Positions 12,255 to 60,290 of a DNA stretch of 64,000 nt are shown in pieces. The position numbers and the translations under genes were made by a program. Source of the stretch: Bryum argenteum (Eukaryota; Streptophyta; Bryopsida; Bryales; Bryaceae); assembly GCA_037043015.1 (NCBI GenBank), contig CM073322.1:23774364-23838363 (forward strand), read 5' to 3'. Numbering within the stretch: the first letter of the stretch is position 1; each line of letters opens with the position of its first letter. The notes under the pieces were generated by a model that was not told the origin of the DNA, did not search any database, and worked only from the letters and a program-made list of their open reading frames with translations.

Positions 12255-12264
12255 AATCCATGAA

Positions 12265-12919: not shown

Positions 12920-13315
12920 ATGGAGAAAACATCGGAGGGGATGAGGAGGATGAGGAGCATGATCAAATACATTCATACTTTCAAAAGTCTTCTTGACCAA
13001 TTGTTGGTAGTCGGATCTCCAATGATCGATGAAGAAAGTGTCTTTGCTTCAATGAGAAGTATGTTACAAACTTATAAAACATATTTAATTTTACCTCAAG
13101 GTCAAACTCTTACTTTGCAAAATTTAATAGCTTATTTACTACAAGAGGATCCAATGCTAAACAATTTAGATAATGAATATAGTAGAATTCTTCACTATTT
13201 AAAAGTGCATCCTCAACTTTAGCTTTTCAGATGAAACCTTGGCATAGTAAAATTCTTCATTATTTAAAAATTCATCCTCAACCTTAGCTTTTAAAATGAA
13301 ACCTTGGCAAAGTGA
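12920..13315 (+). mobile_element. Fossil Ty1/copia retrotransposon, gag piece
   Basis: About 100 codons match the gag polyprotein of plant Ty1/copia elements (the Retrotran_gag/UBN2 type): a helical LLDQLLVVGSP stretch, followed by a SMRSM-YKTYL segment and a TLQNLIAYLLQED segment. No zinc knuckle, protease, integrase, reverse transcriptase or LTR is recognised nearby, so this is a short broken relic. It is probably old. Its 3' end contains a tandem duplication of about 64 bp (13190-13315). Confidence 0.75.
13190..13315. repeat. Tandem duplication of about 64 bp
   Basis: Two adjacent, roughly 85% similar units, each running from AATTCTTCA-TATTTAAAA to ATGAAACCTTGGCA-AGT. The duplication lies within the end of the copia relic and probably arose after it was inserted. 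Confidence 0.8.
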
Positions 13316-15890: not shown

Positions 15891-16413
15891 AGTCGCACTC
15901 TTTCTCCTCCGAAGACAGATTCTAGTCATCTGATTTCTCTACTAGTAAGATTGAGTGAAGTGTTTGGAGTTGGGCTCATTCTTGCGCATTGAGCTAGCAC
16001 AAATTGATCAAGGATCTGAATAATCTAATTTTTTCTTGCGTGACTACGCACCGTCGTCGCCACTCCTCCATGCATGACGTGCTACCTGCCGGGATCGGTA
16101 AACTTCATTTTGATGAATGACACATCTTTTAAATACAAGAGGAGCTCTATTTTGAGAACATATGTTCTCTATAGTTTAAACGGGAGGATATATGTATTCC
16201 AAAATGCCATACGAAAAATGTTCAATCATGATTCAAATACAGTAACATGCATACTATTGTCTATGAGTTTGTAGAAGTTCATGTGTATACACGTTTCGTT
16301 TGTGAATAGTAAGCACAAGCTTCCACTCTCATTTGACTTTAACTCTAGTAATAAATGCTATCGTTCTTGACACAAAAGCAGTATCCTCATATTCTTGCCT
16401 CCTCTTACACTAA

Positions 16414-17031
16414 GGGCCATGCCACGCGAAAGGAAAGGCAATAAGTTGGATGAATTGTATCCGTCATATGAGCAAGTGGTTGCTACATGAGAGGAAGTAT
16501 GGAGAGAGGCAACAATGACATGAAACAACCTCCTAGCTTTGAATTTTACTTTGGAGAATGCTTTGAGATCTACACGGCAATAAAGTAACGTGACATGACA
16601 CGATAAATGTATTTCAAAACTACTAGGCACGTGCTTGGACGCCCACATTGTAAGGAGAACAACAAGGAAGAGGAAGGCAAAATGCCATGTTGGAGGAAGT
16701 TGCAGGACCCAACTACTCGAGAAGGTGAGGAAGTTTCACAACTTCCTCTAACGTGGCACTTTGCCTTCATTTTTTTTTGTATTTCTCTTTACAATGAGGA
16801 CGTCCAACCACTAATACCTGGTAGTTGTGGAATACATTTATTCTGACCTGTCACGTTCCTTTATTGCCAAGTAGATTTCAAAGCATTATTCAAAGCAAAA
16901 TCCAAAACTATAAAAAAAATTTATGTCATTGATGAATCTCTTCATACTTCCTCTCATGTAGCAATCACTTGCTCATTTGAACCAATATAATTCATCCAAC
17001 TCATTGCCTTTCCTCTTGTGTGGCATGGCCC
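16414..17031. mobile_element. 618-bp fold-back MITE, Tourist/Harbinger-like ends
   Basis: The element is almost entirely two inverted arms of about 290 bp each. They are roughly 75-80% similar by eye and separated by a loop of about 36 nt near 16704-16740. The ends are GGGCCATGCCAC and its complement. It is flanked by TAA at 16411-16413 and 17032-17034, which fits the 3-bp TTA/TAA duplication of PIF/Harbinger elements. ORFs inside are shadows of the palindrome. A read-through transcript would form a very long hairpin and could feed small RNA production. Confidence 0.88.
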
Positions 17032-18515
17032 TAATTCCTCCTAAAATTGCCAACGAGTCCTCGTACTTCAAACCTGTTCACATATAATTACATGCCCACT
17101 CTCACTGGCCAGTTAATCACAACAGCAAGATTTACAGTTGATTATTCACGCTGCCTGATTGCAAACAAGGGCTGAGTTCAGACTGCTATCATCAAATATT
17201 CCGAAATTTGAGATGCTCCTGCCATGACCTGTAGCTATTGGTTTCACAATACCCACACAAAATGTTGCTGCTTGAAACACCTCTATTTTCGTTCAACTGG
17301 TATACTCCATGTGCAATTCTGCGATCCGAAGTGTAAGACTTATTTCCTTTTCATTTCTTTTCAGAGCAGGAATAGGAAGCAGAAGTCCCAAGAATTTAGT
17401 TGAGTTGTAGAATTAGTGATTATTCATTGAACTGGTGTCATTTCATGTACAATTTCTGACAATGTTGTATCAGAAAAGGGTGTGCATGAGCCAGACGGAC
17501 CCTCTCAAATGATGCAGAATGACTCATGTGAACTCAGGCTGAGCAGCTTGAACCTGTTCAGAAATTGTTTCACAAATCACCTGGCTGCATGGCTTGATAC
17601 CACAGAACCAATCCTTTTGGCACTTTCTCAGACCGCCATATCTACAATTGATTTACTGAGGGTGGTTATCTGAGTTTTTGATCGTTGAATTACGCATCCC
17701 CTTCATTTGAATAAGAACCGACCTTCCCATCTAAATGTCGATACAGAGCTACTCCAGAGCAGACAAGGCCTCGTGCCCCAAAACAGAGCAGACTGGGCAG
17801 AACGATTGCATCGAAAAAGACAAGTTCGGACAAAACTTACTTGATAGCCACACATCGGTCCCCCCCCCCGAGCGTATACACTTCTCTAAGGAGGAAAATT
17901 GTTACAACTGGGGATCCCCACCAGTCTTACAAGAGAGCTCGCAGACACGCTGCTTGCATCCGCATGGCGTGTACACGAACGTCGCCTGCACATCCAAACA
18001 GACCGCATCTACAACTGCAAAGACTCGTCAATGGTGAACACGTAGAGAAACTTAGTCGAGTATTTAGAATGCGAAAGCCATGTGTCCCTTTGGAACAGTG
18101 GTCCCGGCGCGGATGAGTCAGCTGCGATTGCTACAAACATGAGTTTCTTGCGCACTTTTGCTATTGAGGGGGACACAGTTTCGCATGAAAGAACTCATCG
18201 TTAACTTTCATCTTCAGTTATCATCACACTGCCACATCTCTCGATATCCGCGGCCCACAATAAATCCTCGCTACTGTAGAGTGGGGTACAGAAATAACTC
18301 GAAATATTTTTTCAGTGTGAATCAGTGTCAGGGACAGATCACTCAACTTCAACAAGCTCTAGCAACTACAAAAATGAACGGATTTCGAAGCCGTGAAGCA
18401 CATTGAAAAGATAACTAGTGGGACCCGTGCCGTTGAGCACGTTCAACTTGGATTGCCTAAAGCTATAAAACATTCATAAACTTCAAATAAGTTTATACAG
18501 AAAATATTAAAAAAT
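17032..18515. other. Intergenic stretch, no supported gene
   Basis: ORFs at 17482-17673, 17735-18037 and 17841-18116 lack motifs; the last two overlap in different frames around a CCCCCCCCC tract at about 17862. Around 18280-18312, AGTGGGGTACA followed by an AACTC-GAAATA stretch resembles the right end of the Tc1-type remnant at 21.4 kb, which may mark a second truncated relic. Confidence 0.4.
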
Positions 18516-24827: not shown

Positions 24828-25801
24828 CCCCTAAACGTCCTTGGGGTATTTTTAGCCAAAAACTCATTTTAAAAAAAAGTGATATAGATGAAAATAAAGA
24901 TAAGCTATTCCGATCTTAACCGTACAAACTTGTAATAGACTTGTAGTAGATCATGTGGGCCAAAACTTGACTCATGGGACCTCATAGATTGGGAGATCGT
25001 AACGTATTAGTGCGCAAAACAGGCTACAAAATACCATCATTTCCACTTTGAAGTGAAAATACTACCAACATGAAATTTGCAATCAAAAAATCACCAACTA
25101 GAAAGTTGTTCATCTTCATCTCAAAAACACTTCTGTACCAAAAAAATTCATCAAAAAAATATCTTGGCTCAAATAGTAGCCTTCCAATGGTGAAAACTGC
25201 CTCAAAATTTACAAAGGAAAAATAGTCCAAAACTAGACTCTTTGCACTCAAATCCATGCCCTATCTTCAATACATCTTCAATTAGGTTGAGGTTTCTACC
25301 ACTTAAAATAGACTATGATTGGAATCTATCCCAAAGAATAAAGTCGAAATCTAACGGTGGATGAAGGAGATCTAGCTCCTCAAAAATCATCCATTTTTTC
25401 GCTTTTTTTCATTGTAGAAACATCATTGCAAATCCACTAGCAAAGTTATTTGGATCAAAAAACTTGCAACTAGAAAGTTGTTAGAATACATCTAAAGATC
25501 ATACTTATGTAAAAAAAATTCATGAAAAACTATTTTTGGTTTTGCATAATTGGCTTGCAATGGTGAAACATGCCCAATGTTTGAAATCTCAAAACCAAAA
25601 GCTGCTGTCACTAAAATGCATTCCATTAATTCATACTTCATTGTATGGGTCTGCAATTTGTACCACACAAACTAGACTTAATTTGGGACCCAACCCAAGT
25701 GATTTCGTCAAAAACGGAGTCCGGATGAAGAAGTTATGGCTCTTCAAAGTTTCTGCCCTTCATCCAAAATGTCGTTTTTCGACACTAGGGACGTTTAGGG
25801 G
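24828..25801. mobile_element. TTAA-flanked DNA element A (974 bp)
   Basis: The ends are CCCCTAAACGTCC (24828-24840) and its exact complement (25789-25801), each bordered by TTAA (24824-24827 and 25802-25805). TTAA target sites with ends starting CCC are typical of piggyBac; Kolobok and Sola3 also use TTAA. No transposase is encoded, so the element is non-autonomous. A related copy in inverse orientation lies at 42.9-43.97 kb. Confidence 0.85.
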
Positions 25802-25969
25802 TTAACCTACACAAAAGATGTCATCTACACCAAAGTGTTTATACAATTTATTTCTTTTAAATGTTTTTTTTCTGCCCAATTCCGCAAATAAAATATAAAA
25901 CTAGGTTGTTTGCACCCAAGTGTGCAAAGAAAATTCATCATATATCTCAAATGATAAAGATTATATTAA

Positions 25970-27504: not shown

Positions 27505-27517
27505 TCCACTTTATCTA

Positions 27518-27915
27518 AGGCACCACTAGCCTTGGCTTGGTGGTTGGGGCTTAGGCCTCCAATGAGGAGGTCGTGGGTTCTATTCCCCATGCCGGTGAAT
27601 TCTATTCCCCATGCCGGTGAATTCTATTCCCCATGCCGGCGTGGTGCTTATCACTACAGTCCACCCAACTATTGTGTGGGGTGCTTGGACCTTGTTGTAT
27701 GGGTACCTCAAAGCCCTTTGGGGATACTATGTCAAATATCCTTAAGGCATATAATTAGGCATTTGTAACCAGTTATAGTGTCCACCCTCGAGATGGGGAA
27801 GTAGTATTGTTCCAATTTCCCCTTGTCAAGTGGCCATCGGGATATTAGCATTACAAACGGACACTTCATTCACGCCGGCCCCTTAGAAAGGGACCGGAGT
27901 TTCTATCTATCTATC
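27518..27915 (+). mobile_element. tRNA-derived SINE, copy 2, with internal triplication
   Basis: Full-length copy in plus orientation with the 13-bp duplication TCCACTTTATCTA at 27505-27517 and 27916-27928. Head CTTGGCTTGGTGGTTGGGGC, box B GGTCGTGGGTTC, tail (TCTA)n. A 22-bp unit starting TCTATTCCCCATGCCGGTGA is present three times in tandem (27579-27644) just after box B, where other copies have one. This makes the copy 398 bp long. Confidence 0.92.
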
Positions 27916-27928
27916 TCCACTTTATCTA

Positions 27929-33736: not shown

Positions 33737-34105
33737 GATAGATAGATAGATAGATAGAAACTTCGGTCCCTTTCTAAGGGGCCGGCATGAATGAAGTGTC
33801 CGTTCGTAATGCTAATATCCCGATGGCCACCGGACAAGGGGAAATTGGAACAATACTACTTCCCCCTCTTAAGGGTGGACACTGTAACTACGCTAGTTTC
33901 TAGCCTAGTTACTAATGCCTTGAAGATACTTGACATAGTATTCCCCCAAAGAGCTTTGAGGTACCCATACAACAAGGTCCAAAGACCCCCCACAATAGTT
34001 GGGTGGACTATAGCGGTGAGCACCACGCCGGCATGGGGAATGGAACCCACGACCTCCTCATTGGGGGCCTAAGCCCTAACCACCAAGCCAAGGCTTGTGG
34101 TGCCT
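33737..34105 (-). mobile_element. tRNA-derived SINE, copy 3 (full length)
   Basis: Minus orientation, 369 bp, with the 12-bp duplication TTCAAGTATGCA at 33725-33736 and 34106-34117. It is nearly identical in layout to copy 1, with the tRNA-like head at the right and the (TCTA)n tail at the left. High similarity between copies 1 and 3 suggests recent activity. Confidence 0.92.
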
Positions 34106-34117
34106 TTCAAGTATGCA

Positions 34118-37665: not shown

Positions 37666-39586
37666 ACTTACCCTGCTTAGACATAGAATCGCCTCATTTT
37701 TTGACGGAAGTAGTGGATCGCTGCAGTTTAAATAATCAGGGTGGCTCTTGGGTATGCTGAGCTGATGAAAGCTAAGGCATGCTTATTCAACATGTCTTTC
37801 AATTCTATGAAGCTTTGGAATGGCCATGTTCCTAGTTCCTTTGTGTACGAGTCTCATTAGGTTGGTTAATGGCAAGTACGTGACATTACATGGATATATT
37901 TGCCTCATTCGTTGTAGTGAATGAGTTTTTATGCTATGATTGGATGAACTTATGAAATGTTTTAGTACGCTCTGAAATAGTGGATATTGTTTTCTTTGCA
38001 AATTGTAGAAAAGTACAAAAATGACAACTCCTATTGGTCTATCTTTTCACTTACTTTGCCCATGCACAAAAATTGGTTTACTTGAAATTAAGCCAATATT
38101 GAGCGCGTTACTCTAAAGGATATTATTGTTTTGTAATTGCATATGCACTTATATTTGTGTGGAGTGACTTCTAAGTTCAAAATAAAGCTATGACCTTCAC
38201 AATTTTAATGTGTGATAATGGCAACTTGGCACGAAACATGGATAGATTAGGGGATAGGTTATAGTTTTCAAGTGAGGTTTTAAGAGCACGACCATCCTTG
38301 TATGGAATTTGAAGCCTTAAAAACCATTGCTTGGCATTGTTTTTCACATGTAGAGTCTTGGTCTCAAATTATAGATTCCGACCTACGCACGCTAATGTGA
38401 TCTCGTTTCATTAATGAGACACATGTTTGTCATGTGAGCTCGTACATATGGGAACATGTAAAATCTTGATACCTGTAGAAAACGCCAATGCAATGAACGG
38501 GGAGAACGGGGAAGCACGCACTAAAAGCCGGATATCTACCCATCTCCTGTGATGAGGAGTCGGAATTATACCGATACGGTCATTCGTTTGCCGGATGAAA
38601 ACCCGGCTATTTGTCCATTGACTGGAATGAGACCGTTCACTCTTTGCAAGGGACGGAAATCATCCAATTATGGATTTGGGCTTGCCACTCGCAGTTGAGC
38701 AACTCCCAACGGCGCCTCTTGCAGCTTGCTCCCCTACTCGTTCTACTCGTTCAGCTTGCTCCTCTCCGGAAAATATGCTTCTACCACCTCTCCGCAACTC
38801 TCTTGTTCCGACCTAGACTCTCCTCCCGAATGCGCCTCTCGGCAAGCACACCATCAGTCGACCTTTAGCGCAGATATGCAAAGATATGCAAAGTTGATAT
38901 GCAAAGAGACAATTCGAGGAGCCGTTGGTTGAGAGATCATAAGAGTCTTTATAGCTTCCTGAAAGAGAATAATAGTCCCGAAAGGTCTCTTTCCTCGATG
39001 GGTGTCTGTTATTGATGATGTTTTTGAGTCTGATAGCATCTTATTGTTGCAGCTTCTTTTTGAAGCCCAGCAACAAGCACTACTCCTCCTTGCTGAGCTT
39101 GCAGGCCGGATAGCATCTCGTATTGTAGCTTGTTCTATCAGAGGAAGCATCCCTGGTGACAATCGGTTGTCCTCTTCCAAGGTACGCTCTACCCTTTTTT
39201 TTCCATTATCTAACTCTAGCTTACAGACTAAAATTTATGATAGTTTATCAATCTTTTGATGATACTCTGATTAGGAGTATAAGCCCTACGGGTGCTTTGA
39301 AAAGAGGGAACTAATTCGCGACATATTGAAGAATTACCGAGATCTTTAGGAGTCAATGTGCTATTCCTCTGGTGCAATTTTTTGGATTTTCTCATTGCAT
39401 GTACTTTGATGTGTTTGTGTGATTGATTGTTTCACATTCTTGTCATGCTTTTTAACATGTCACGCTATACTCCCGGTGTTGATTTCTGCTTTTCTTCATT
39501 GCATGTATTTGTGTGATTGATTGATTTTTTGTATTATTGTTTTTCTTTCTTTTTCTTCTTGCATTATTTAGATTGGTTGCATCATC
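37666..39586. other. Intergenic stretch with one weak exon-like ORF
   Basis: The 3' flank of the COX7c-like gene is followed by AT-rich DNA. At about 38950-39180 (plus), an open stretch (IDDVFESDSILLLQLLFEAQQQALLLLAEL in part) ends at a good donor-like AG|GTACGC. Its acidic, Leu-rich and Gln-rich start recalls transposase N-termini, and it may be a 5' piece of the hAT element next door or a relic of another. Not assigned. Confidence 0.35.
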
Positions 39587-41891
39587 ATGGCTATTGTTAC
39601 ATGTGTGCTTAGATTTGGTTCGTTTTGGTTTTCACTTCTTGTTATGGCTCTCATTTTCCCATTGGTTGCTAAAAAACAGAAAATCCTTAGTAATATGTTT
39701 TTTGGAGCTGAAATATCTGATGAGGAAAGGGAAATCTTCCCCTTAACCACATCACGTAGTATCAAAAAACCTGAAAATGCCATTGATGCTGCTAGGAGGG
39801 AATGGAAATATTCGTGGTACTTAGACTATGATTGGCTTGGATTTAATGCAACAATAGGTAGAGTATTTTGTAAAATTTGTAAAGAGAAAGGGGGGAGGTC
39901 CGTTTTTGCAAAGGCAGGGTCAGTTAATATAAAAGTTTTTGCTTTTAAAGACCATGGTAGGTCAGATGAGCATAAGAGTTTTGTATGGGCCATTCAATCT
40001 GGAGAAAAAGTTATGGTTAAAGCAATTGCGCAAGCTAATAGGACTTGTGATGAGGCAGTATTAAATCTTTTCAGAGTTGCCTATTACATAGGAAAAACAC
40101 CATTTCATTTAACAAATATCCTCCTTTATGTTAATTATTTGTTAGAGTGAAGGCAACCATAATTGAAAAACTTTACCATGACGAGAAAGCATGCGCAAAT
40201 ATGGTATTTTGTATTTCCAAAGTTATAAAAATAAAAGTACTTGATAGAGTCAAAAATGCAAGACTTTTTGGAATAATGATAGATGAATCCACTGACATTG
40301 CAGTAACTAGCGACTTGGTAGTTTTTGCTTCATTTTTTGAAGAAGGGTTACCGTTTCAGTGTTTTTAGGTCTTCTATTCATTGCTGATGGACACAAGGAT
40401 GTTGTAGTAATGTATGAAAGACTAAGAGATTATCTAGTCAAAGATTGCGGATTAGATTTTGAGAAATTTACTGGATTTGGATCTGATGGAGCAGCGACAA
40501 TGGTTGGGGGAAAAAATGGAATTTCTACAAGGTTAAAACAACATAATCCTTTTTTGACCGCCGTTCATTGTGTGGCACATAGAACTAATTTGGCAGCTTT
40601 AGAGGCTGCCAAGCATGATTCTTGCAAAGCGATTTCATGTTATGTTGACAAAGTATTAAACAGATCTGCTTTTGATTTTTAAAAAGTCTTGTCAAAGGAG
40701 AGTTAATTTACAAGCTTTCCAGAGTATACTCTTGGATGCTAAGAGATCATTAAAAAGATACCACAAAATAAGGTGGCTATCTAGGTGGCAAGCCGTTACT
40801 TCTTTATGTGATAGTTTAGAAAGTGTAATGACATATTTTCGTGTTGTGCCACATAAAAAAGATGATAAAGATGCCCCTTATTTGTATGAAAAGTTAACTA
40901 AGGTCATTTACAATGATTTATTGTTTATACTTTTTGACTGACATATTACACATGCTTTCTTTACTTTCAAGAGTCTTTCAATATAAGTTTGTTGATGTCA
41001 GTAGTATTGGATCAATTGTTAGGGCTGAAATTACACAAATTAGGATGTTGTTTATAGAAGAAAGGTCAGATTTGTATATTTGTATGTTTAAGGAGGATTG
41101 GGAATATCATTTAATCCCTGATTTTGGCCCTCAAGGAGGTTATTTAAACGCCTTTCATCTTCACATTAGAGGTAAGTGGTATTATAGTGTTGAAATGATT
41201 TGTGATAGAATTGGTTGTGATCTTGAAGAGGCTCTAGATTTTGAGAAAGCGTATGCTCAAGTTGTGATTGATGCTTTAGAAAGTAGATTTGAAGACAATG
41301 GAATCATGAATGCTTTCAAAGTTCTTAATCCTTGTAACATGCCATCAAAGTCTGTGGGATTGGGAAGCTAGGGTGTTACAGATTTAGAGGTTTTATGTTC
41401 TCATTATGGTAAGGAGCAAGACCTCAATGGTTAGAAATTCAGCCCTCTTATTAACCCTGATGCAGAAACGTGAATTTTTGTCATTCAAAATTTAAGCTAC
41501 AAGTGATTGGATGCAAAAGAATTTTAGAGATTTATGGAATATGATTTCTTGGCATTCTTCACTTCAAGTAAAGTATTCTAATCTTTTGATCTTAGCTGAA
41601 ATTGCAAGTGTGCAATGTGTTAGTACAGCTGCTTGTGAAAGAGCATTTTTTGTACAAAATTGTATAAAATCAAAATTCATAAATAGATTGAAGACACAAC
41701 ATTTGGAAAGTGCTATGCGTATTGCTCTAGAAGGACCTGAAGAAGGTTGCGATTCCCTTCTTTTAGATGCTATTGGACTTTGGAAAAGTACGACCAAGTT
41801 CAGGTATTTGTATTCTGACCCTGAGAAATATTTGATTGACAATGCAATTACTAGTGACATGCATGTTGATGTAGACATTCCTAACTATTGA
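39587..41891 (+). mobile_element. hAT-superfamily transposase, broken
   Basis: The plus-strand open stretches follow the order of a TTF-zinc-finger/DUF4371-type hAT transposase. A WLGFN-G-VFCKICK zinc-finger-like region lies at about 39,830-39,890. Next come LFGIMIDESTDIAV (first Asp region, 40,264-40,305) and FGSDGAATMVG with AVHCVAHRTNLA (second Asp and following region, 40,477-40,590). RWLSRWQAV follows, then the C-terminal dimerisation domain VSTAACERAFFVQN-IKSKFINRL (41,610-41,700). The reading frame is interrupted in about five places, so the copy is dead, but codons outside the breaks are well kept. Terminal repeats and the 8-bp duplication were not found. It resembles the ZNF862-like branch. 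Confidence 0.88.
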
Positions 41892-42560: not shown

Positions 42561-42921
42561 TTGACCGAAGATTTCAAAAGACATAGGAAAAATACTGAAA
42601 TTTTCCAAACCCTCCCGGTTCAATGCGCCAATGCACTCTAGGCTACTCTATGTAAGTGACACAATTGTCCTAAGAGCATTTTTACTCCATAAGTCAAGAA
42701 TATACCCTTCCTTTGAAATTACCTAATTTTGGAAGTTTTAAAGAGTTACAGATTTGTGTAGACTACTTTCTAGATAAAGTTAAAGAAACCTAAGAAAGTT
42801 GATAGTGGGAGTTTTTAGTTGAGAGAATCTAAACTGGTTGTCATTTAATGATTATAGTCACAAATAGTAGCAAATCAGACAATGATTGGGAATTTAAAAT
42901 GTCTATGTTTTCTTTATTTAA

Positions 42922-43965
42922 TCCCTAACCGGGTCGAATGTGGAAAAACGACATTTGGATGACAGCACCAACTTTGACGAGCCATAAATTTTTCATCCAA
43001 AGTTAGTTTTGGATGTAATCACTTGATTGCGTCCCAAATCAACTACGGTTTGTGTGATAAAAAATGCAAACCCAAGTAAGGAAGTATGAATAAATGGCAT
43101 GCATTTTAGTGAAGGGAGCTCTTATTTATGAGTTTTCAAACATGGGGCATGTTTTGCCATTGGAAGGCAACTATGTGGAATCAAAAAGAATTTTTCATGA
43201 ATTTTTTTGCCACAATGATGTTCTTTGTATAAAGAGCAACAACTTCCTAGTAGGAAGATATTTGATCTTAATATTTTTGGTATTGAATCTGCAACCATGT
43301 TTCTATCTTGAAAGAAAGTGAATAAATGAATAATTTTGAGGAGCAATATTTCCTCCATCCACCGTTGGATTTTGACTTTATGTTTTTCGGATGGATTCCA
43401 ATTAGAGTTTAGTTTTAGAGGTAGAAACCTTGTAAAAATCAAAGATATATTGAAGATAAGGCATAGATTTGAGTGCAAAGGGTTGGGTCATGAACTATTT
43501 TCTTTTCTTAAGTTTTGGGGGTTTTCACCATTGCAAGGTCATTAAATGCGCAATGAAATTTATTCATGGATTCTCTTTGTTCAAGGGTATTATTAAGATG
43601 AAAGTAAACATCTTTGTAGTCGGTGGTCTTTTTTATTGCAATACGTCTATTGATAGCATTTTCACTTCAAAGTGAAAATGTTGAGATTTTGTGATGCTTT
43701 TTGAATTCTAATACGTTGTGATCTTGCAATCTATGAGGCCTCAGTGACTTAAAGTTTGGCCCACATGATGTCCTATATGTCTATCCCCTTGCCCGGTGGC
43801 CATCGGGATATTAGCATTACGAACGGACACTTCATTCACGCCAGCCCCTTAGAAAGGGACCGGAGTTTCTATCTATCTATCCTATATGTCTACTACAAGA
43901 TTGTATGGCTCGAAATCTAAATAGCTTACCTTTGTTTCCATTCATGACACTTTTTTTGAGAATGT
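42922..43965. mobile_element. TTAA-flanked DNA element D, host of SINE copy 4
   Basis: TTAA at 42918-42921 precedes TCCCTAACCGGGTC. Just inside are GGAAAAACGACATTTGGATG and GAGCCATAA, matching the right end of element A read in reverse. The body follows element A in inverse order to about 43,965, including a TTTTCACTTCAAAGTGAAAA palindrome. The far terminal repeat is eroded. A 5'-truncated SINE is inserted at 43,784, so the SINE is younger. Confidence 0.72.
43784..43879 (+). mobile_element. tRNA-derived SINE, copy 4 (5'-truncated)
   Basis: Only the last 96 bp are present (from CCGGTGGCCATCGGGATATT to the (TCTA)n tail), yet a perfect 13-bp duplication TCCTATATGTCTA flanks it (43771-43783 and 43880-43892). 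Truncation at the 5' end with intact duplication is the mark of incomplete target-primed reverse transcription. Confidence 0.92.
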
Positions 43966-44043
43966 TTTCTTTTCTCTACCAATGTGTCAAACCATTTAAA
44001 GGTTAAATACAAATTCTTTCAGCTAGCGAAGTAATTCAATTAA

Positions 44044-44090
44044 AACGCGCAATTAAACAATTATGCACCCGGCTATTTAAAAGTGCACTT
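44044..44090 (+). repeat. Left terminal inverted repeat of the 11.2-kb element
   Basis: 25-bp repeat next to TTAA, then 12 bp, then AAGTGCACTT (itself palindromic). Two mismatches to the right end. Confidence 0.75.
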
Positions 44091-44989
44091 GGGTACTACG
44101 ATGGCCATTTCTTGCAAAAATGGAATTTTTTATTTTTAAACTTGATTTTTTCTGGAAAAAAAGGTGTTTTGCAAAGAATGTTGCGTATTGTCAGAAGTGG
44201 TAATATAAAAAGACTTCTAATGGCATTGTGAACATATTTTTGGTATAAATCCATGTGAATAATACAAATATTTTTGTCCAGGGATATTTGAAATGCTTAG
44301 TATATGCTACAAATTGTGTAGATTATAGTTAATATATTTTTGGTGAGCAAAATGACGCGAGCACCAAACTGTTAATAAAAGTAGGCACCAAATTGTGCCA
44401 ATGGACATTTAATAAAAATATACTTCATATTGTACTTTGTATATATGTGGTAGAAAAGTATCTAAATACACATTCTTCTAAATGTATACCAAGTTATGTA
44501 TATAACTGATAATACAACTAAATTCAACCCATATGTTCATCGCAACAACACGTCTGAAAATAATCCTTGCGATCTTGTACTATCTAGTACGTATATACAC
44601 TTAGAAACACCATGTGTACACAAAACACATGGACTACATACTAATATCTAATGCGGCTTGCAAGCGGTCATCATCGATAGCTTGGGTTTGCATTGCGATA
44701 TATTCTAATATGTGGGCCTTCGCAGATTGGATAATGCAAATGTTGCTTGAAACCCGCACTCCAAAGACATTGCGGTTTCTCCCCGACTATGACTGCACAT
44801 GATTCTTTCCGGTTCGTCCGCCCCATGAAAAAATATACATGCCTCTTTCTCTATCCAATCGTGATTCTCCCGGATGGCTCCCACAATGAATCCAAACAGT
44901 TTGCATACCGTTGTAAAGAGGAACTCGGTCCGTCACCAACTCCCCCTCGAATGATTGGCCAATACCAACAAACTTTCATCTTGATTTTA

Positions 44990-47720
44990 TTCCGGCCTTT
45001 TCCGTCTTCAATCACCTTCCCTAAATAAAATGGAACACCCTCGTGTACTTCGCACGATCAACAACACGAGGCTACAAATTGTCGAACGGATATCGGATTG
45101 AGGATCAAATTGGGGAAAAGGATCGTCAGTACCTTCTGATACCGCTCTTTCTTCGGTTCCATCAAAGATGTGACTGCGAGCCGTTCTTTGTGCCCTACGC
45201 ACTGCTTGGTTAGGTGGCCTCTCTCTTCGATGACCAAAGTATCCTCTAGCCTCAGAATTTGGAAGCATCGCCACTATTTGGTCCACAATAGTAATCTCGT
45301 GGTTTGATTAATTTCGATCGTCAATAACATCTATTGATGCATCTACAATAGGTGATGTCTCTAATACCTCTGAAGGCCAAAGCTGTGAAGAACTATGCTC
45401 GTTGCTACGATCTTTGCTTGGGAATTCGGCTAGGTATATTTTCAAATGTTCTGCCTCTCTTTTAGCTTCACCATTTTTTTCCGGATGTTGGAATCTTTGA
45501 ATGCACCTTTCTTTGTATGCAATAAAGTCATCCAATGCCTTCAACTCCCTTTCATCAGCTGCAAACACCTTTGCAAACGATGGTCGTTCTTCTTTATTTG
45601 GTAGCGATTGCAACGTCTTTGTCCCTGACTCAGGTCCCCATTTATCCTTGCTATAATGTTTGTGTTGTACTCGAACCTTACCGACCCCCTCTCGATTGTC
45701 CATACAGAATCGCATGTGGTGCGGAAAGGTTATGCCAACCAAAGAGTCCCCACCCGTCGATCGATAAGTGAGGGGTTATGAAGGACTTCCAATCCCACAC
45801 ATTTTCTAAGAGTCCAAGCGCTAACAAATGCCGCTTATTATGGATGTACCTTGTTCTATTAGACTAAGCATTTCCTTCAATGAGTCGATGTCCGACCTCT
45901 TCAACACATTAGATATACAACTAAAGCGTTGGTCGATATCTTCGTGTGTATGGCCCACTATAAGGAAAGAGAGCTCCACCTCTTGAAAAAAAAAACCCAA
46001 TCCCACCAATGAAACACATAGAGCAAACATGTAAATGTTTTTATTCTCTCGTGTGCAGTTATCCGCTTGGATACGTAATGTTGGAGGCAAAAAGCGTTTT
46101 CTCCTCTTCACATCTCCTATCACGTGCAACAATGTGCTCACCACCTGGTTGCTATCGTGTTTGTGGTGCGCGCCAACCACACATCGCAATATAAACCAAT
46201 CCCATGTTTAGAGGGCTCTACACAAATGGGTCTTCACAAACCGATACTCGATGTTCTTCACGGTTTGACGCATTCTCGGTACCATGGTAGTGTTTTGATC
46301 CATGCCATCAACAATGATGCACATGTACAACTCCGGGCTGATATAGCACGACCTCTTAAATATACAATAATCTCTCCGTTCCTCCATCCGAATACGCAGA
46401 TGCATCATAAACAACTCTTTTATTTTGATCCGAAAGATCTGCATTCGTGGTTCCCTCCACGGCACATTTATATTCCCAAAGCCGATAACACTTTGAAAAC
46501 CTTGAGAATGGAGGTACGCGGACATGAGGATACACGATGCGCCACATCCTCCGAACGAGCTAATTGAAATGGTTTCTCCGTTACAAACTCTCTTCACCTC
46601 CTCCTTCACGTAATTGAATATATCGACTTCCGAGTATTCACGGGCGGAGAATAAGAGGCACCACTTCGTTGTCATCCTTACGAAGAATTGAACGATGAGG
46701 TTGAGGACAACCAGCTTCGTCCACAAATGATTTAAATGAGGCCTCTGCCGCTGACATTCTAGTGCTCTCCCGAAGCGGGTTTGAAAGGCTGTTACCGTGA
46801 ATCGCTGCCACTCTTCCATATATTAAACACTCCTTCTTCAGTTGTTTAAACCGTCTTTGTGAATATCCAATGCCCAGAGCATAACAAGCATTACAAACTT
46901 GTTTGCCATCTAACATTGTGACAAATTTATCTTGTTGGAAACGTTCCGTCCGTGTATAAAAAGAAAGCAGCATTTGTCTCATCCAAGTACTTCGAATTGC
47001 ATAAGTAGAAGCACACGCATTATAACGCATGTCCAATAGATACCGTTCTTGAATGTCTCACAAACAATTTTGTTTGCATCCTCCTCGCCCTATTGCACGC
47101 TTAGAAGAGATACCTTCGTAGATATACCTTCTCTAGAAGATGTCTCCCTGGAATCTCTGCTTCTTCTATTTTGCATAGAATATGGACGTCGGGCCGCTCT
47201 GACATGAATAAGCCCATCTACATGGGGCAAATCTCGGATGTTGGAAAGAGTACTTTGAGAAAATGGAGAGTTCTCATCTACGGGGTTTGAAGCTATACTA
47301 CTACGCCGAGACCTATCAGTGGATCCAGGTGTGTTGAAGTTGTCATGGAAATCAAATTCTTGTGTCAACCTCCGTACAGGTGGCGTTTGAAACCCATTCA
47401 ATACGTCCTCGCCATTTTGAATGGTGGGTTCCATGGCTATCGCACGTAGATAAGATTTGTGCCAACGGATGATCAATCCAACACACATTCCAAGACGTTC
47501 TCCCACAATCTCTCCAGTCCAATGCAATGCATCGTCTACCCTAGTGATGCGTACTGCCACCTCGGACGGGAATAACTTCGATCCATGCAATTGCGCGCGG
47601 ATTTTGAAATGTATACTCCCTAGTTGCCAAGCCGACAACTTCTCTTCTTTCGATAACAATTCAAATGTCCTTTCCAATTGAGATGAAATGACGCGAGTAA
47701 TACCATCTCGATCTGCGCTT
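44990..47720 (-). pseudogene. Transposase-like gene (DUF7869 type) of the 11.2-kb element
   Basis: Read from 47.7 kb leftward: a LSAWQLGSIHFKIRAQLHGSKLFPSEVAV start region with a following polar stretch; then VCNACYALGIGYSQRRFKQLKK (Cys-containing) and GCPQPHR; then IIVDGMDQNTTMVPR; then QADNCTRENKNIYMFAL and VGHTHEDIDQRFS; then a C-terminal PHHMRFCMDNREGVGKVRVQ and YSKDKWGP-SGTKTLQ region (45,720-45,600). The three Asp-rich motifs (DGMDQ, DNC-REN, HTHEDID) look like a DDE/D-type active site. This motif set is what databases call DUF7869 as I recall it. Several breaks put these parts in different frames, so the copy is not functional. Confidence 0.68.
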
Positions 47721-49181
47721 GACGAGCCGCTGCCGTATTAATCGCGCTCCCACCGAACCGTTCGGATTAATGACATCGCTTCACGTTGGGTGTTTTGATG
47801 TACTAAAGGGATTTGGAAATTGGAGCATCGTTGTCGTTGTTGAACTAATAGGAACCTATACATTGCAAACATGTGAAAATATGTGTGTAAGCAATAGAAA
47901 ATATCATTCATTCAAACGAACATATGTTCAAGGACATAAATTTTTGCTTCTAAACATGATTGTTAATGTTGGTTACTAAGTTCGTAAAGATATTATATAT
48001 AATTGTTAAGATTGTTTAAAGTTGTTAAATTACTTAGGATTATCTTGTGTAATTTATTTATTTATAAATTAACGGTTTATCTACCTCTACAGACATGTGT
48101 TGGATAAAATAATACAATGCTAAGTTTTGATTACATGGAAATAACAATAATCATGTTTGATACCTTGTCCAAGACTATGTTACACCTTAGGAATTGGATT
48201 GTTTGCGTTTCATAATACATTGCTAAAAATCGTTGATTGAAATAAAAAAAGACAATGACAACATGAAATGGCGTCAAATTACTTTGTACCTATTGCAATT
48301 TCCATTATAAATCCTACATCATGCTTTGAGCGTGCATAAAATCACAAAGATGGTGGTATTGTTTAGGATAAAGGAATAATTATTGCAATGACAATGATTA
48401 TAGAAAGTTACAACTTACTTATAGGTTCAATTAAATTTGCAAGAAAAAATAATATTTGCAATATTCATTGTATGATCTATTATCATAGCGATGGATAGAA
48501 TTATCATGTGTTCTTGTATGAATGCAATATATTATTGTTTGGAAAATATGGTAATTTTAAACTTTACCTTTAACTTCTACTACATTATAAAAATGAAAGT
48601 TGAATAAAACTTGCAACCAATGATTCAATTGCACTCAAGTAGGAACAAAGTTTTATAGAAGAACAAAAAATATTAAATCAAATTGTAACTAAATTATTCC
48701 CACCTTAATGTGTTAGCTTTATAGGGCTTAGAACCAAGTGGTGTTCACACCACATGTTCATTCTTAGACATGCTCTTCAATAGATGTAAAATATATAGAC
48801 CTGGAAACATACAACAAATAAACCGGAATTTAGCAATGCAAACACTCGTGCTTTAGAGATTATTCAACTAGTAACTTACATTTTGAGTCATCTTGGAATT
48901 TGAAAGAAAAAATAAATAAATAAATTTCATTTTCAGTGAATTTTAAGAATTAAAAAAATGATTCACAACACACAACAAAATTTCAAGAATTTAGTGAAAC
49001 AATAACTTGTAGATTACATTAGCCTTCTACTAAAATCATTCAATTGTTTTCATAATTATAGAAAGTTTTTTAAAAAACTTAACATACAACAAAATTGCTA
49101 TAATACAGCAATAAAAATACCTTCGATTAGACATCCATCAACTAAAAAATGACATAATTTTTTTTTTTTTTAAAAAAAGAA
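47721..49181. other. AT-rich inter-gene DNA within the 11.2-kb element
   Basis: Lies between the two divergent coding regions. No ORF with motifs. It may hold the divergent promoters. Confidence 0.5.
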
Positions 49182-49285
49182 AAAAAAAGAGGAGGTGGTA
49201 GAGGTGTTCGCCGGACAGTCACCCGCCAAAAAGGCAGGGGCCAGGGGGTGTCCGGGCGAACACCTCTACCACCTCCTCTTTTTTT
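49182..49285. repeat. Hairpin with 36-bp arms, one bulge
   Basis: The left arm 49182-49217 contains GAGGAGGTGGTAGAGGTGTT. The right arm 49249-49285 is its complement with a single extra base. The 31-nt loop contains GCCAAAAAGGCAGGGGCC. Poly(T)/poly(A) runs sit on both outer sides. It may be a small insertion or a structural part of the element. Confidence 0.85.
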
Positions 49286-49326
49286 GTTCATCTGACCTGT
49301 CCGCTTCTGATCTTCTGGCACACTTG

Positions 49327-49610
49327 CCGTTTCTTCCTCCGCTCTTGCTCGTGTTTTTGAAGGTCGTTGTTGCCGTTTCTTCCTCCTCCGCTCTTGCTCC
49401 TGTTTTTGAAGGTCTTTGTTGCCGTTTCTTCCTCGTCCGCTCTTGCTCGTATTTCTGCAGGTTGCTATTGCCGTTTCTTCCTCCTCCGCTCTTGCTCCTG
49501 TTTTTGAAGGTCTTTGTTGCCGTTTCTTCCTCCTCCGCTCTTGCTCGTGTTTCTGCAGGTTGCTATTGCCTTTTCTTCCTCCTCCGCTCTTGCTCGTGTT
49601 TCTCAAGAAC
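49327..49610. repeat. 49-bp minisatellite, six units
   Basis: Units start CCGTTTCTTCCTCCTCCGCT and contain CTTGCTC-TGTTTTTGAAGG or a GTGTTTCTGCAGG variant. The two variants alternate, suggesting a higher-order 98-bp unit. Since 49 is not a multiple of 3, the long ORFs through it on both strands are artefacts of its composition. Confidence 0.9.
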
Positions 49611-50716
49611 GCTACTAGGACGATCTGTAGAGCACTAGGAGAGTTTCGTGACTTGTTGCAACCAAAAATATTTTTGCCGATTCTCCTTATCGCTTGCTGC
49701 TGCTGTACCGAATAGCTGCTTGCTCTAGTACCGAATCGCTGCTGCTATTGTACCAGATCGCCGCCTGTTGTTGCTATCGAATCGATGCTTGCTACTTGCT
49801 GATCTTGTTGCTATTCCTCATTGCTATCACTGGTATTGTTGCTACTATTGCGGCGTGCATTTTGGGTTCTTGTTCGCTCTTGTACATGTGTGCGCTACTA
49901 TTCAAGTTTATCCCACTTTGTACTCGATATGTTAAAATCTTCGTCTTCCTCCCTTCATCCTCTTTTTGTGGTCTTTGTTGCGACCATGCAAACCCCACCA
50001 AAAGCCACCAAAATCCTAATCTTAAATCCTTAAACCCTAAAAAATTTAAGAATCTTTAAAAATAGAAATAATAAAAAATTATGAGAGATTGCAAGGGGTG
50101 TGCGCACAAGACACCCTTGAAACAATCAACCAAGTGAACTCAATAAACATCCCATTTACTATATTAAAGCCATTTCAAACGTCTGATACCCGCCCATGAG
50201 GGATACCTGCCCATATTGATACCCGTCATACATTATAATTACTTGCTTAAGAACAAGAAAAATGAAAACATTTAGCAACACATGATAGTAAAAATATTAA
50301 TGTAGATATTGTAGAACTAACATCTTTCACATACAGTCGTTTGAGACTAAAGAATATTACCTTCTTTTACGATTCCAAATTTCTAAAATTGTCTTCACTG
50401 TAAAAAGAGCATTTAGCCCCAGTCAAACATGTTCGCACATTTTGGTCAAAGGAGAGAAAAAAAACACTATTTCCTACATAAAACCTATAGATCTTCATTT
50501 TTTAATTTTTTTTTTTTCTAGCGAAAAATTTATGTGATAAATAAATTCTTATCAATCATTTTGGATTTTCATTCTAAAGCATGTTGAGTTCACAAAAGAA
50601 TAAAATGTGGCATAAAAGTTTGTCTATATGGTGAATTTTGGTATAAGTTATCAATATTTTATTGAATAGAAATCAAAACAATTGTCAAATAGACTCTAAA
50701 TTACACCATATTAACC
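49611..50716. other. CTG/TTG-rich then AT-rich DNA within the 11.2-kb element
   Basis: At 49,690-49,850, imperfect GCTGCTATTGTACCGAATCG-like repeats continue the low-complexity zone. The rest is AT-rich, with AAACCCTAAAA-like words at about 50,030. No gene. Confidence 0.5.
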
Positions 50717-53700
50717 ATTATGATATTGTGTTCCAATGATGATCAGGTTGCCATGCCTCGCAACGTCGGAACCAACTGCAAAATCGACAAGACATGGGAG
50801 AAGCACGGATGGTGGATTGTAGAAGAGGACCCCTCAAAGCCTTATTTGTGGATGACGCACCAACCTTTTAAAATAAGGGACCGTACGTCAGCGTTAGGCA
50901 AGCGTTTTGGCGAGATTCAAGCAATTACTACCCGCCCATCGTCTGACATGATATATGTGATGTGTGTCCCAGATGCTGATGAAGCAATGCAGAAGACTTC
51001 TCTGTCGAGACAGCTTCTTCTTGCATCCATTCCAGAATCCTTGCTTGCAAGTTCTGGGTCCGTGAAATTTTTCAATACCTTGCAGAAATTTTGGTCAATA
51101 TCGCTCTGCCGCAGACGTCATGGCGGCGCGAGAGCATATGTCACATTGTCTAGGGTTATCACAAGAGGATGTGGCACGAGCAATGGTTCTTATGGATGCC
51201 CATATTAAGTACGAAGCATTACTAGAGGCGGATCCAACACATGCAACATCACAAGGTCCACCAGCTGAACCAGAAGAGACGGATCCAATTCATCGTAGTT
51301 ATGTTATTGGAGGTGAGTTGGATTACTAAATACTTCAAAGATTGCACAATCTGTGCCCGTCCAGGCGTCATCGCGACTATCGAGCCGCTTTGTAGGAAGT
51401 GTTCCTCTATCCGGGAAGAGGACGTCCTTCAAAGCGGCCACGACGTGAGAGAGGCGACATAGCATCTGGTTCGGGTGGACGATCGTCGAACGTGGCTACA
51501 AGTGGTGCGAGGTCAACTGGACGAGGATCGAGGGCACGTGGTAGGGGTAGTGGGTCTACAACCATGAGGTTTCCAGCTCAGCGTGGAGCATCTAACATGT
51601 GCCGAGTTCTTCACCAATGTATCGGCGGTGGAGGACGAGTTTGAAAAATCGGACCGGGGACGAAGAGGATTGATCGGAACCGAGGATGGCGTTGGAGGCC
51701 TCAACGTCAAGTAAGTTCCTAGCACCGATACCTACTGAAGGAGAAATCGCGAAAGGATCACTATGGGGGGACATTGTATTCGAGGTGAAGATCGACAAGA
51801 TTATCCAAGTGGAGAGTCCTTTGACAAACCATCGGGTACTCTCTGCAAAGAGAGTTAGAGAGGTTTATGACTTTATGAGACATCCAGAGAACAAGACTTG
51901 TGTGAGCAAGTTGGTTCTTCGTCCGATCAAGTACATTGTGGATGTCACTACTGACGATGGTGTGGTTCGGCAAGAAGAGGTGGCATTCCCCCTCGAAAAA
52001 GCTCAACGAGAGTTCCAACGTATATTTGATACACACGGATTAGTGTCTATTCACGGTACAACACATTCTCAGTTGTGTTGGCTTCAGGAGAGGATCATTT
52101 GGGAGCCAGTGGATGGACAACACATTGTTGCAGCCTGCAATTTTGCGAAGGAAGAGGTTGCCCAACACAAACTCTCACATGCTGAGTTTATTAACATCTT
52201 TGAAATGCGGGAGGCAACATTTGTCGTATACGATGATCATGCATTGTACCTAGCGAAGTCCGCGCGGGTCAACAAGAAGGAATGGAATAGGACAAAATAT
52301 TCCACCATGGATGAGGACTTGAGAAAGCTACGCGAGATTTGGGAGTTGTATGGGAAGCCTGATAGCTTGGTTCGTGCAGACGATGAACGCAGGGCTAAAG
52401 CTCTGGTGTGTGCGGCTAATCTGATCTGAAAGAACTTGTTGTTGAGGGCAACAAAGGTATAACAATCAAGAGGTTGGCAAAGCGGATGCATGACTTGACC
52501 ATTCATGCGTGGAATCCTCGGCGCGAGTGTTCTGAAGCTATCCTTCAAGTGTGCAAGGACTACGAAGATGGCCATCTCTTTTATAGCGAGGAAGAGGAGA
52601 AGAAGTGGAAGGCGTTTGCAGACAAAGAACAACCTAGATCCTCTTGTGGATGTACGGGAGCGTCGGAAGCGAATGACCATGCATTGGTTGAGGCGGCTGA
52701 ATGTGGTTCCACGATCTGCTTATCTACGGCTAGTCAAGTCTTGTGCAGCTAAGCCAGTGGGGAGGGCGGTAGTGAGACCTCGACAATCATATTATTTTCA
52801 CGCCATCAAGGATGCGTCTAGGGATACCCGTACTATTGCAGGTGCAGTTGACCGGATCATGAGACAAGAAGCGGTCGCTAATATCACTCGTTGGTTAATG
52901 GTGTCCAACAAAGTCTTTCACCTAATTCCATGGAAGAGTTCTTCCACATATCTGTACGGAAGTATTTTCCCGGGGGCAAGGAGCAAATTGATGCATTTGG
53001 CAAGGACTTGGCCAAAGACACAAAAGCCGCATGGGCTAAACCTACACGAGAGAAGGTGCCCAAGTTGGCAGACATAAGTGAACTTATTCCCACCTCCATC
53101 AAGGTTCACTATCATGACATTGCAACAAGAACACATGGAGAAGTGGAAGCATCAGCAGATGAGGGTGGTGCCACTACCGTCACATGGAAGTGGGTGTTAC
53201 AAGTTCGAAGGCCAACTTAGACCAGTACACCAGATCATCTTATGGTTCGAGCTTGGGAAGGATTATTTCATCCTGATGTCCAGCAGTTGACACAATCATA
53301 CTTATGGGTTGTTGATTGTCGACGTGGTGGGGGAAGGCATGGAGACGGTCGCTTGGGAAGAAGAAGCGATTCACCAAAGTTATTGCACAATTGTCGGGCG
53401 TGGATGACGGGCGTTGAAACGATGGAACAAGATTCTCTCTTTGTTACCACCACCCCGTGTTCTTAATGCCGAGTTGTTCGCGAAGCTCAAACTTCCCGAG
53501 GGCGGCACTCAACGACATGGATGTTGGGCATTTGGCGCAAACTCGGTTGATCGATGCCCTCAACTTTACACAGGGTGGTCGATTCTGAGGAAGCGGTGGA
53601 ACCATTTGGAGGTGTTGTTGTTTATATACAACACAACACCGCTGATACTTCCCCAACCGTAATTATGTTTAAGGGACCGTCCCACTACCACTTGTATTTC

Positions 53701-54564
53701 ACGATCAATAGAGTGAGACACATCAACCGTCGGAGGGTGATAGACTCGAGCGATCGCCATCCGAGCTCTCTAGATCGGTGGATGCGTATTTGCCAATTGG
53801 TTGGGGTTTGGCTGCGTATAACATTACAACGGCCATTCCGAAAATCCTTCATGGAGGTTTCCATGGATCGGAGATCATTGTCATTGACGATAGCCTAGAA
53901 AGGCTAAACTTCTTGTATACAAAGTTGTTTGTCAACTTCCAGGACAATTTCGAATCCCCGAGATGACGGGTGCAACAAGGAAAGACTAGCGTTGGCATTT
54001 CCGAGGCGAAGATCCGATGAACATAGGTTCAGAGGAAGGCGGTAGTGACGAGGACGAGCTTGGAGATGAAGCGGATACTTCTATTCCAGCACCATATACA
54101 TTGGCAAATGTGCGACAGCCGCGTGAGTATGACACAGATGTATCCTCGCCTGATCATAACTCATGTGACGACGGACTTTATTCGTCTGTGGAACCTAATG
54201 GCTTTGGGGAAGGATCAGAGATACCGGAGGTGGTTCTAGATACTCCAATTCAAACGAGACCAATAGTGCCATCCATTCCACAATCTACAGAATCAGCGGA
54301 GACCATAGCTTTCAATGAGGCCTTCGCACCAATGATGACATTTAGAGACGGCTTCTACTATAACACCGATGGCATAAGGTACACTCGCCACGGTGAGCCG
54401 AGCGATTCTGGCGTCACGAGGAGTCTGCGTCCATCGGTCTTCAAGATTCTATTGATCCCCAGTGTCGGCAAGGCGCGATGGATCGTATGGTACATGAGGC
54501 CTATGAAGCGCGATCTGGTAGGACAATGGAGGAGGATGATTAGAGCATCAGAGATTTATAAGTA
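50717..54564 (+). pseudogene. ParB-like multi-domain coding region of the 11.2-kb element
   Basis: Consecutive plus-strand open stretches, in shifting frames, from 50,720 to 54,564. First comes a WEKHGWWIVEEDPSKPY segment, then an Arg/Gly/Ser-rich basic stretch (51,405-51,560). The longest intact piece is 51,686-52,429 (247 codons, ATG). It has VKIDKIIQ, a NHRVLSAKRVREV helix, KLVLRPI and IIWEPVDGQHIVAACNFAKE (PVDGQH at residues 141-146), followed by ATFVVYDD. This order is that of the ParB/sulfiredoxin nuclease-like fold. Later pieces include a VVDSEEAVEPFGGVVVYI segment (about 53,580) and an acidic SDEDELGDEADTS stretch (54,040-54,090) near the end. I recognise no family for those. Frame changes may be breaks, introns or both. 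Confidence 0.5.
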
Positions 54565-55255
54565 GCAAGTCAATATGATGTTTAGGTGACATGTTAGGTT
54601 AGATTGATATGTTTGAGTAAAGTATGAGATGTTTGGTTATAGTATTATGCATGTTATATTATAGTATTTACTATCGATTTCTAAAAATACGTTTATGAAT
54701 TTTATGTATGGATTTTCATATAATATAGAGCGAGATGCTACATATTTTCTCGTTGAATAGCACATGTTGGCCTTTTATCTCTTATAAAGTATGTTTGTTG
54801 TATAAATGCCAAAAATAGTATATAAATGTCATATAGCAATGTACAACGTAGAGGTTCGTAATCAAAATTGTATTGAATCTAAAAAGAAACACTATAGGAA
54901 GTTCAAGGACAAAATTGAATCTTTGAAATTCTTTAAATTTCAATTTTTGCACTCCAAGACGTGACGTTGTCCTTCATATTGATCCATTGGGATTTGTATT
55001 CCAAAAAATTATATGGTGCACAAAATAATAAAATAGATGTTGGCAATATTTGAATATAATAATTTGGTAGTATTTACAAAGCAATAAAACATGATTTAGC
55101 AACAAATTTGTTATTAAAAAAATACTATTTCTCATTAGTTTAAGTTTAGTGCCTCCACATTTAAATTTTTTTTTTTGTGTGGAATTTTTGTTGTTTTTTT
55201 TCATTTTGGAGGAAAATGTTGTTGTTTTGACATGCCATTGAGTGCACTTGGCAAA
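54565..55255. other. AT-rich right margin of the 11.2-kb element
   Basis: No gene. An AGTGCACTT motif at 55,241-55,249 mirrors the left end. Confidence 0.55.
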
Positions 55256-55280
55256 GTGCATAATTGCTTAATTGCGTGTT
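55241..55280 (-). repeat. Right terminal inverted repeat of the 11.2-kb element
   Basis: AGTGCACTT, then 6 bp, then the 25-bp repeat ending in GCGTGTT and TTAA. Mirrors the left end. Confidence 0.75.
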
Positions 55281-55284
55281 TTAA

Positions 55285-59170: not shown

Positions 59171-59336
59171 GCAACGACGATGAGTATGTTAGGGTTGGAG
59201 GATTTGCAGGTTTGTTGCGAACATGGGTTGGATATGTAGAGAGGCGAGACTTTTGATCCGGGGCGCGCGGAGACAGTGTTAGGGTTGGAATGCAATGAGG
59301 AAGATTGGTTTGTGAGGTGACAGGTCTGGGTTTGAG

Positions 59337-60290
59337 ATGGCGTCGTCGTCGTCTTTATTCAGGGGGGACACCTCCTCGGAGACCTCAGGTTCAATGAGGT
59401 CTCCGTTATCGAGTTTCATGAGATCCCCAATGTCGAGTTCGATGATGCCATCCCCAGTATCCTCCCGCTTGACGATGGAATTCGACTCCGCATTCACGAT
59501 GGAACAGGAGGATCCCATTCGTTTCACTGGTACAGACATTCTGCCGTATCTTTCGCAGCCAAGCTCCTGCAGCTCGAGTTCCGATTTCGACACCCAAAGC
59601 TCTGGCGGGGGATCAGGATCGACCTCCTTTTGCGACTTGAATGATTCGAATAGGATAACGCTTGGGAGTCTCATCGGACTTCCAATGGCAGATTCATTTC
59701 GAACTTTTGGGGAGTCGTTGCGGTTTCTAGGGCGCGGCGACAGCACGTATGATAGCGGAAGCAGCAACCGGTCCACTGAAGGAGGACCGCCGCGTCGCTC
59801 GAGGTCGTGCAGTCTGCTCGGCGACATTTTCCGGTGCTTGCAGCGGAATAGAACTGATTACGTAAGCGATGCTCCGGCCAGGAGAAACCTCACGGCTCTC
59901 ACGTCCTTTACTATTACGGAAGTTTCCGAGGAGGAGGAGCGAGACTCGGATAGTGACAATGGTCCGACAGTATTCGAAAACTCAGTGTTCGTCGAACGGG
60001 ATACCCTGGGCAGCCGCATTTATGAATTCAATCCACTCTACATCTCAGACGCCATGTCCGAGGTCGATCCTGAATCTCGAGATGTGAGCCTTGCGCGAGA
60101 GAGCTCTAGTTCAGGAAATTCTACAGACAGCATGGAGTCAGGTGACGATGAAAGCTCGAGATTGAGCGTCCAAGTGAGCACGCCCACAGCCCCGTTGAGC
60201 CCCCGAGCCGATGTTCAGCCTCTGTCCCCAATGCGGACCGTTCTTACTGCCATGTGCTGCCGCCTGGGCGACGACTGCCCCAGTGACTGA
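59337..60290 (+). CDS. Uncharacterised serine-rich 317-residue protein, single exon
   Basis: A long intronless ORF in GC-rich DNA with an ATG start. The N-terminal 100 residues are Ser/Met/Pro-rich with repeated MRSPLSS-like phrases. The middle has an RSRSCSLLGDIFRCLQRNR segment (about 153-171) and an ITEVSEEEERDSDSDNG acidic patch. A STPTAPLSPRADVQPLSPMR proline-directed phosphosite-like stretch follows near the C-terminus, before TVLTAMCCRLGDDC. No transmembrane segment or signal peptide. The pattern suggests a largely disordered, phosphorylated regulatory protein. I cannot name its family. Confidence 0.75.
   Translation: MASSSSLFRGDTSSETSGSMRSPLSSFMRSPMSSSMMPSPVSSRLTMEFDSAFTMEQEDPIRFTGTDILPYLSQPSSCSSSSDFDTQSSGGGSGSTSFCDLNDSNRITLGSLIGLPMADSFRTFGESLRFLGRGDSTYDSGSSNRSTEGGPPRRSRSCSLLGDIFRCLQRNRTDYVSDAPARRNLTALTSFTITEVSEEEERDSDSDNGPTVFENSVFVERDTLGSRIYEFNPLYISDAMSEVDPESRDVSLARESSSSGNSTDSMESGDDESSRLSVQVSTPTAPLSPRADVQPLSPMRTVLTAMCCRLGDDCPSD

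Follow-up and report, generated by a model that had tools for sequence, protein, structure and literature searches.

The 64,000-nucleotide stretch of Bryum argenteum DNA analysed here (hereafter the window; assembly GCA_037043015.1, contig CM073322.1, positions 23,774,364 to 23,838,363 of the forward strand) contains the relic of an 11.2-kb element whose inverted ends border on TTAA, and which holds a decayed gene for a protein of the Pfam family DUF7869 and a second decayed gene transcribed away from it. We interpret this relic as a single inactive cut-and-paste DNA transposon, inserted at TTAA and composed of the DUF7869 gene and a divergent accessory gene with a candidate ParB-like domain, and we assign this interpretation a probability of roughly 0.75.

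The left end of the element (44040-44068) consists of TTAA followed by AACGCGCAATTAAACAATTATGCAC, and an inverted copy that differs at two positions is located at 55256-55284; the copies match end to end at 27 of 29 positions with TTAA counted, and at 23 of 25 without it. The 25-bp terminal inverted repeats (TIRs) at 44044-44068 (plus strand) and 55256-55280 (minus strand) were recovered by an inverted-repeat search, and the adjoining TTAAs at 44040-44043 and 55281-55284, presumably the target-site duplication, delimit 11,245 bp. The score for ungapped, distant inverted repeats in this 11.3-kb segment is 23, compared with a maximum of 16 in dinucleotide shuffles; none of the 200 shuffles equals the element, so the TIRs far exceed chance. 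A TIR joined to TTAA, with up to three mismatches allowed, is found at only two places in the window (mean of zero in 100 shuffles). These results bear out what a sequence-only reading of this DNA had described, namely 25-bp inverted repeats with 23 matching positions, each beside TTAA. Given that a single copy was examined, one could assume that a pair of genes came to lie between accidental inverted repeats. However, the shuffles, the presence of TTAA at both ends, and the decay of both genes, whereas a helicase gene some 38 kb distant has kept a 718-residue open frame, make this explanation extremely improbable.

The flanks that were inspected contain no longer direct repeat outside the two TTAAs, which implies that the duplication is either TTAA or TA with matching neighbours; in a single copy, a 2-bp TA duplication is indistinguishable from TTAA. 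When the flanks are joined, the junction finds no match anywhere inside the window. Just inside the left TIR lies the palindrome AAGTGCACTT (44081-44090), and just inside the right TIR lies AGTGCACTT (55241-55249). A subterminal motif following each TIR, as reported earlier, is thus present inside both ends, but the AGTGCACTT copies are out of register, with GTGCAC offset by 43 from the left end and by 37 from the right end. As the GTGCAC core is palindromic, the orientation of the motif is undefined.

The left gene (44705-47737, minus strand; limits set by stop-free stretches) is broken by a stop codon and by frame changes, and it encodes a genuine DUF7869 protein. The stretch 45821-46207 scores 136.7 bits against the Pfam model (PF25273; cut-off 26; E = 9.1e-40), with the match spanning 45851-46168 and profile positions 32-135 of 192, and the read-through translation scores 134.1 bits. 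The match includes the motifs ADNC (46055-46066) and GHTHEDID (45932-45955). The candidate first catalytic aspartate motif, VDGMDQ (46295-46312), lies upstream of and outside the matched stretch, across an in-frame TAA stop (46205-46207); the starts of the three motifs are separated by 82 and 37 residues. Of the earlier description as a DUF7869-type protein with three aspartate motifs, the family and two motifs are therefore recovered by the profile, and the first motif was recognised by eye. The reading of all three as catalytic sites is likewise made by eye, and they are best called candidates. A structure model of the protein, made without relatives, was useless (mean predicted local distance difference test score, pLDDT, 37.2), and the literature search returned no paper that names DUF7869.

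A TTAA duplication would be compatible with the Kolobok and piggyBac superfamilies as well, and the element might belong to one of these and not be Sola-like. According to the available sections of PMC9587614, Kolobok ends have the form 5'-RR...YY-3', which agrees with 5'-AA...TT-3' here, and Kolobok lineages often encode accessory proteins. However, this assignment appears improbable, as the Pfam scans of the left-gene pieces detected no piggyBac transposase domain, and no family besides DUF7869 passed its cut-off. The C/DxxH motif of Kolobok was not seen on inspection between ADNC and GHTHEDID, with the third acidic residue, in GHTHEDID, itself assigned by eye.

The two genes diverge from a common centre, and roughly 660 and 720 bp separate them from the TTAAs on their respective sides. 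With outward genes that stop about 700 bp short of either end, one decayed, TTAA-targeting transposon is the best reading of the anatomy, in line with the earlier proposal of one mobile unit with two divergent genes. The central region between the genes (47738-50752, delimited by the open stretches) presumably contains their promoters. The repeat search located in it a perfect inverted repeat whose 31-bp arms are 42 bp apart (49182-49285) and an array of 49-bp tandem repeats (49324-49601). The presence of a perfect repeat within an otherwise decayed element suggests a recent origin, a nested insertion or constraint. Open stretches of up to 200 residues lie on and beside the tandem array (49142-50059), and none of six open stretches in or at the edges of this centre of about 3 kb has a Pfam match at a threshold of 0.1. 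The sequence-only reading had counted exactly two decayed, divergent coding regions; there are two main ones, and the central open stretches come in addition.

An alternative explanation is that the two halves have different histories, with the TIRs belonging to a DUF7869 transposon and the right gene being a captured or nested passenger that has no role in transposition. Transposons do capture second genes, as illustrated by Fanzor1 in Sola2 (PMC3627910, in the sections available), and the central inverted repeat and tandem array could be nested inserts. However, the right gene takes up the right half of the element and its end mirrors that of the left gene, no near-perfect pair among the longest 25 of the 40 listed inverted-repeat pairs encloses the right gene alone, and the same layout is described for an alga in the accessible part of PMC12477816. 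We therefore consider separate histories unlikely and retain the interpretation as one transposon.

The right gene (50753-54565, plus strand) extends from MPRNVG to the stop codon after IRASEIYK, and its open stretches nearly abut while switching frame repeatedly. By eye we recognised in it an AT-hook-like stretch, GRGRPSKRPRRERG (51414-51455). The longest piece, an open stretch of 251 residues (51674-52429), carries WEPVDGQHIVAA and a candidate, weakly matching ParB-like domain with the VDGQH motif (EPVDGQHIVAA, 52103-52135). We built a ParB profile from 13 domains, those of L013 and of 12 phage sequences (L098-L109), chosen among 60 of 297 records. The alignment of the 251-residue piece to this profile falls into two collinear halves separated by about 60 residues. 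Eight other stretches from the window were used as decoys; five of these scored -1.3 bits or lower, and three gave no reported score.

A methyltransferase at 53224-53963 had been suspected by eye, and the algal precedent has one. The profile used for this candidate was built from E. coli YhdJ together with 11 phage relatives (12 sequences, chosen among 40 of 1975 records), and the query was the frame-joined stretch of the decayed right gene. All 12 left-out members were recognised, with at least 95.9 bits each. In the METHYLTRANSFERASE test, the composite of the later right-gene pieces scored -3.1 bits, a value equalled or exceeded by 970 of 2000 shuffles; a translation in a single frame (frame 0) gave -0.8 bits, a value without a shuffle baseline. 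The candidate thus does no better than shuffled sequence and is left unshown.

Several observations weigh against a single transposon with a ParB-like accessory gene. Only one copy of the element has been seen, and it comes without an empty site, a second copy or an allele; the matching ends might enclose two gene relics that are unrelated to each other. In Pfam, the 251-residue stretch matches best not ParB but ABhydrolase-like_N (E = 0.0019; 18.5 bits, with a cut-off of 27). On the ParB profile this piece scores 3.9 bits, which 16 of 2000 shuffles equal, whereas left-out members score between 23 and 143 bits (13 of 13, each above 300 shuffles). The score of the two halves together is equalled in 92 of 5000 shuffles and by 12 of 438 open-frame decoys, and that of the motif half alone in 84 of 5000 shuffles and by 33 of the 438 decoys. 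No methyltransferase signal was found in the right gene with Pfam, NCBIfam, PDB or our own profile. Finally, the kinship of DUF7869 with Sola transposases is conjectural.

These scores bear on a further possibility, that the second gene is not ParB-like at all but encodes a large, unrelated protein in which VDGQH occurs by chance, an alternative that we take seriously without favouring it. Searches of Pfam, NCBIfam, PHROGs and PDB found no ParB domain in the right gene, only weak unrelated matches (besides ABhydrolase-like_N, PrimPol_Db with E = 0.03). Degenerate scans returned 8 stretches for GHTHxDID and 88 for PVDGQHxxxA (viral contigs), and by inspection the contexts look like chance, except for L013 and perhaps L074, which look ParB-like; on the profile the possible relative L074 scores 6.2 bits, and the best shuffle in that test scores 6.0. 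However, the phage homologues of L013 are annotated as ParB-like, and for L013, itself one of the 88 contexts, Pfam lists HTH_ParB and not the N-terminal ParB model. The absence of a Pfam match therefore counts for little. In addition, the motif and the profile's upstream half occur in collinear order, a result matched by 16 of 2000 shuffles, and a ParB-like domain is reported for the accessory protein of an algal transposon (PMC12477816, in the part available). Across the controls, 0.8-2.7% match the profile score, and the gap between 3.9 bits and the scores of true members indicates that the 251-residue piece can be no more than a decayed or very distant relative. The ParB-like fold that had been proposed for this protein is accordingly not confirmed: the libraries give no match, and a structure model made without relatives has a mean pLDDT of 36.1 and is useless. 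Profile searches of the individual open stretches thus recovered the DUF7869 half of the earlier assignment and not the ParB half, and a ParB identity of the right gene is suggestive at most.

If the element was one transposon with a ParB-like accessory gene, the DUF7869 protein, likely a DDD-type transposase, would have recognised the 25-bp ends, cut at TTAA and re-inserted the element elsewhere. The sequence directly shows the ends, the TTAAs, DUF7869, the orientation of the genes and their decay; catalysis, mobility, a ParB function and kinship with Sola are inferred. The second gene would have produced a large accessory protein with the AT-hook-like stretch and the candidate ParB-like domain, and this protein is likely to have bound DNA of the element itself, perhaps at the palindromic AGTGCACT sites inside both ends. 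The element would then work like, and may be kin to, those Sola1-type algal transposons in which a ParB-methyltransferase gene occupies the opposite strand. One could go further and envisage a transposon lineage, probably in plants, in which a DUF7869 DDD transposase is accompanied by its own ParB-like clamp, which loads at the AGTGCACT sites as the counterpart of parS and pairs or marks the ends without any methyltransferase; we consider this version very unlikely.

The searches of the window detected neither a second copy nor any fragment of the element. A search of prokaryotic and viral collections with the TIR gave one genome match (L122, the cyanobacterium Fischerella) and no viral match; the Fischerella match is located inside an 899-residue open frame and outside all listed inverted repeats, and we attribute it to chance. 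The DUF7869 and ParB pieces found nothing convincing among viral contigs, genome contigs, phages and plasmids. A match in an Aeromonas phage (E = 0.1, 39% over 51 residues) and two matches of the ParB piece (E = 8 and 2) were treated as chance.

About 2 kb to the left of the element is a decayed hAT transposon (39572-41888) with a zf-C17orf113 zinc finger (E = 8.4e-11) and a Dimer_Tnp_hAT domain (E = 1.2e-5). A dispersed repeat family is found at 12264-12627, 27517-27916, 33740-34106 and 43784-43891, with aligned pairs 79-95% alike; the last of these copies stops some 150 bp short of the left TTAA and lies next to a longer repeat (42918-43784), which has an inverted copy with 76% identity at 24935-25805. 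A 620-bp foldback at 16413-17032, 78% alike to its own reverse complement, is perhaps similar to a miniature inverted-repeat transposable element. A copia-type gag domain is weakly matched at 12884-13219 (E = 3.1e-4, below the cut-off). Genes in the window include the DEAD/DEAH-box helicase (3942-6098) and pieces of a peroxidase (9805-10383 and 10565-10993); together with the hAT and copia matches, this content is in keeping with a plant genome. An open frame of 324 residues (59316-60290, plus strand) overlaps one of 192 residues on the minus strand (59279-59857), and Pfam gives no match to either within the limits applied. The window contains no Rfam family.

As a lead, the value of the element lies in a DUF7869 protein with defined, TTAA-bordered ends and a partner on the opposite strand. 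If both genes travel together in a plant, then ParB-type accessory genes of DNA transposons would extend beyond algae, and the unnamed Pfam family DUF7869 would be linked to a mobile element whose ends are defined. The TIRs and the palindromic subterminal motif provide a concrete target for binding tests.

Sola elements have DDD transposases and produce 4-bp duplications, and Sola3 uses TTAA. The available sections of PMC10294476 and PMC5199201 state no target site for Sola3; Sola1 is listed in Physcomitrella and Sola in Capsicum (PMC9033089, in part). Kolobok, including KolobokP, is similar in its TTAA duplications, which are presumed for the moss element, in its 5'-RR ends and in its accessory proteins, and most KolobokP families have their second gene on the complementary strand (PMC9587614, in part); the moss element differs in its DUF7869 match, in that C/DxxH was not seen and in that no long terminal direct repeats are among those listed. 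Sola2 elements resemble the moss relic in their short TIRs and, if its duplication is TTAA, in having 4-bp AT-rich duplications, and they captured a second gene; however, their duplications are AWWT and similar, whereas TTAA is found here, and their partner is Fanzor1 (PMC3627910, in part).

The closest likeness is to Sola1-1_Ec32, a giant Sola1 transposon of 21.5 kb from the brown alga Ectocarpus (PMC12477816, here and below as far as the accessible text goes). As interpreted here, both are DNA transposons with a transposase and an accessory gene on the opposite strand; in Sola1-1_Ec32 this gene encodes a protein of 1104 residues for which a ParB-like domain and a DNA methyltransferase domain are reported. 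The algal element is longer (21.5 kb compared with 11.2 kb), its methyltransferase domain was undetected here, and the two are likened by description and not by sequence. The same paper also cites ParB-methyltransferase proteins from transposons of green and red algae, which represent the same kind of accessory protein, with algae as hosts. The sequence-only reading knew of no description of a transposase paired with a ParB-like partner in one plant element; a similar pairing has been published for the Ectocarpus transposon, in the one paper with such a pairing found in the literature searched (PMC12477816). The gene pairing in Bryum argenteum is probably an example of this published kind.

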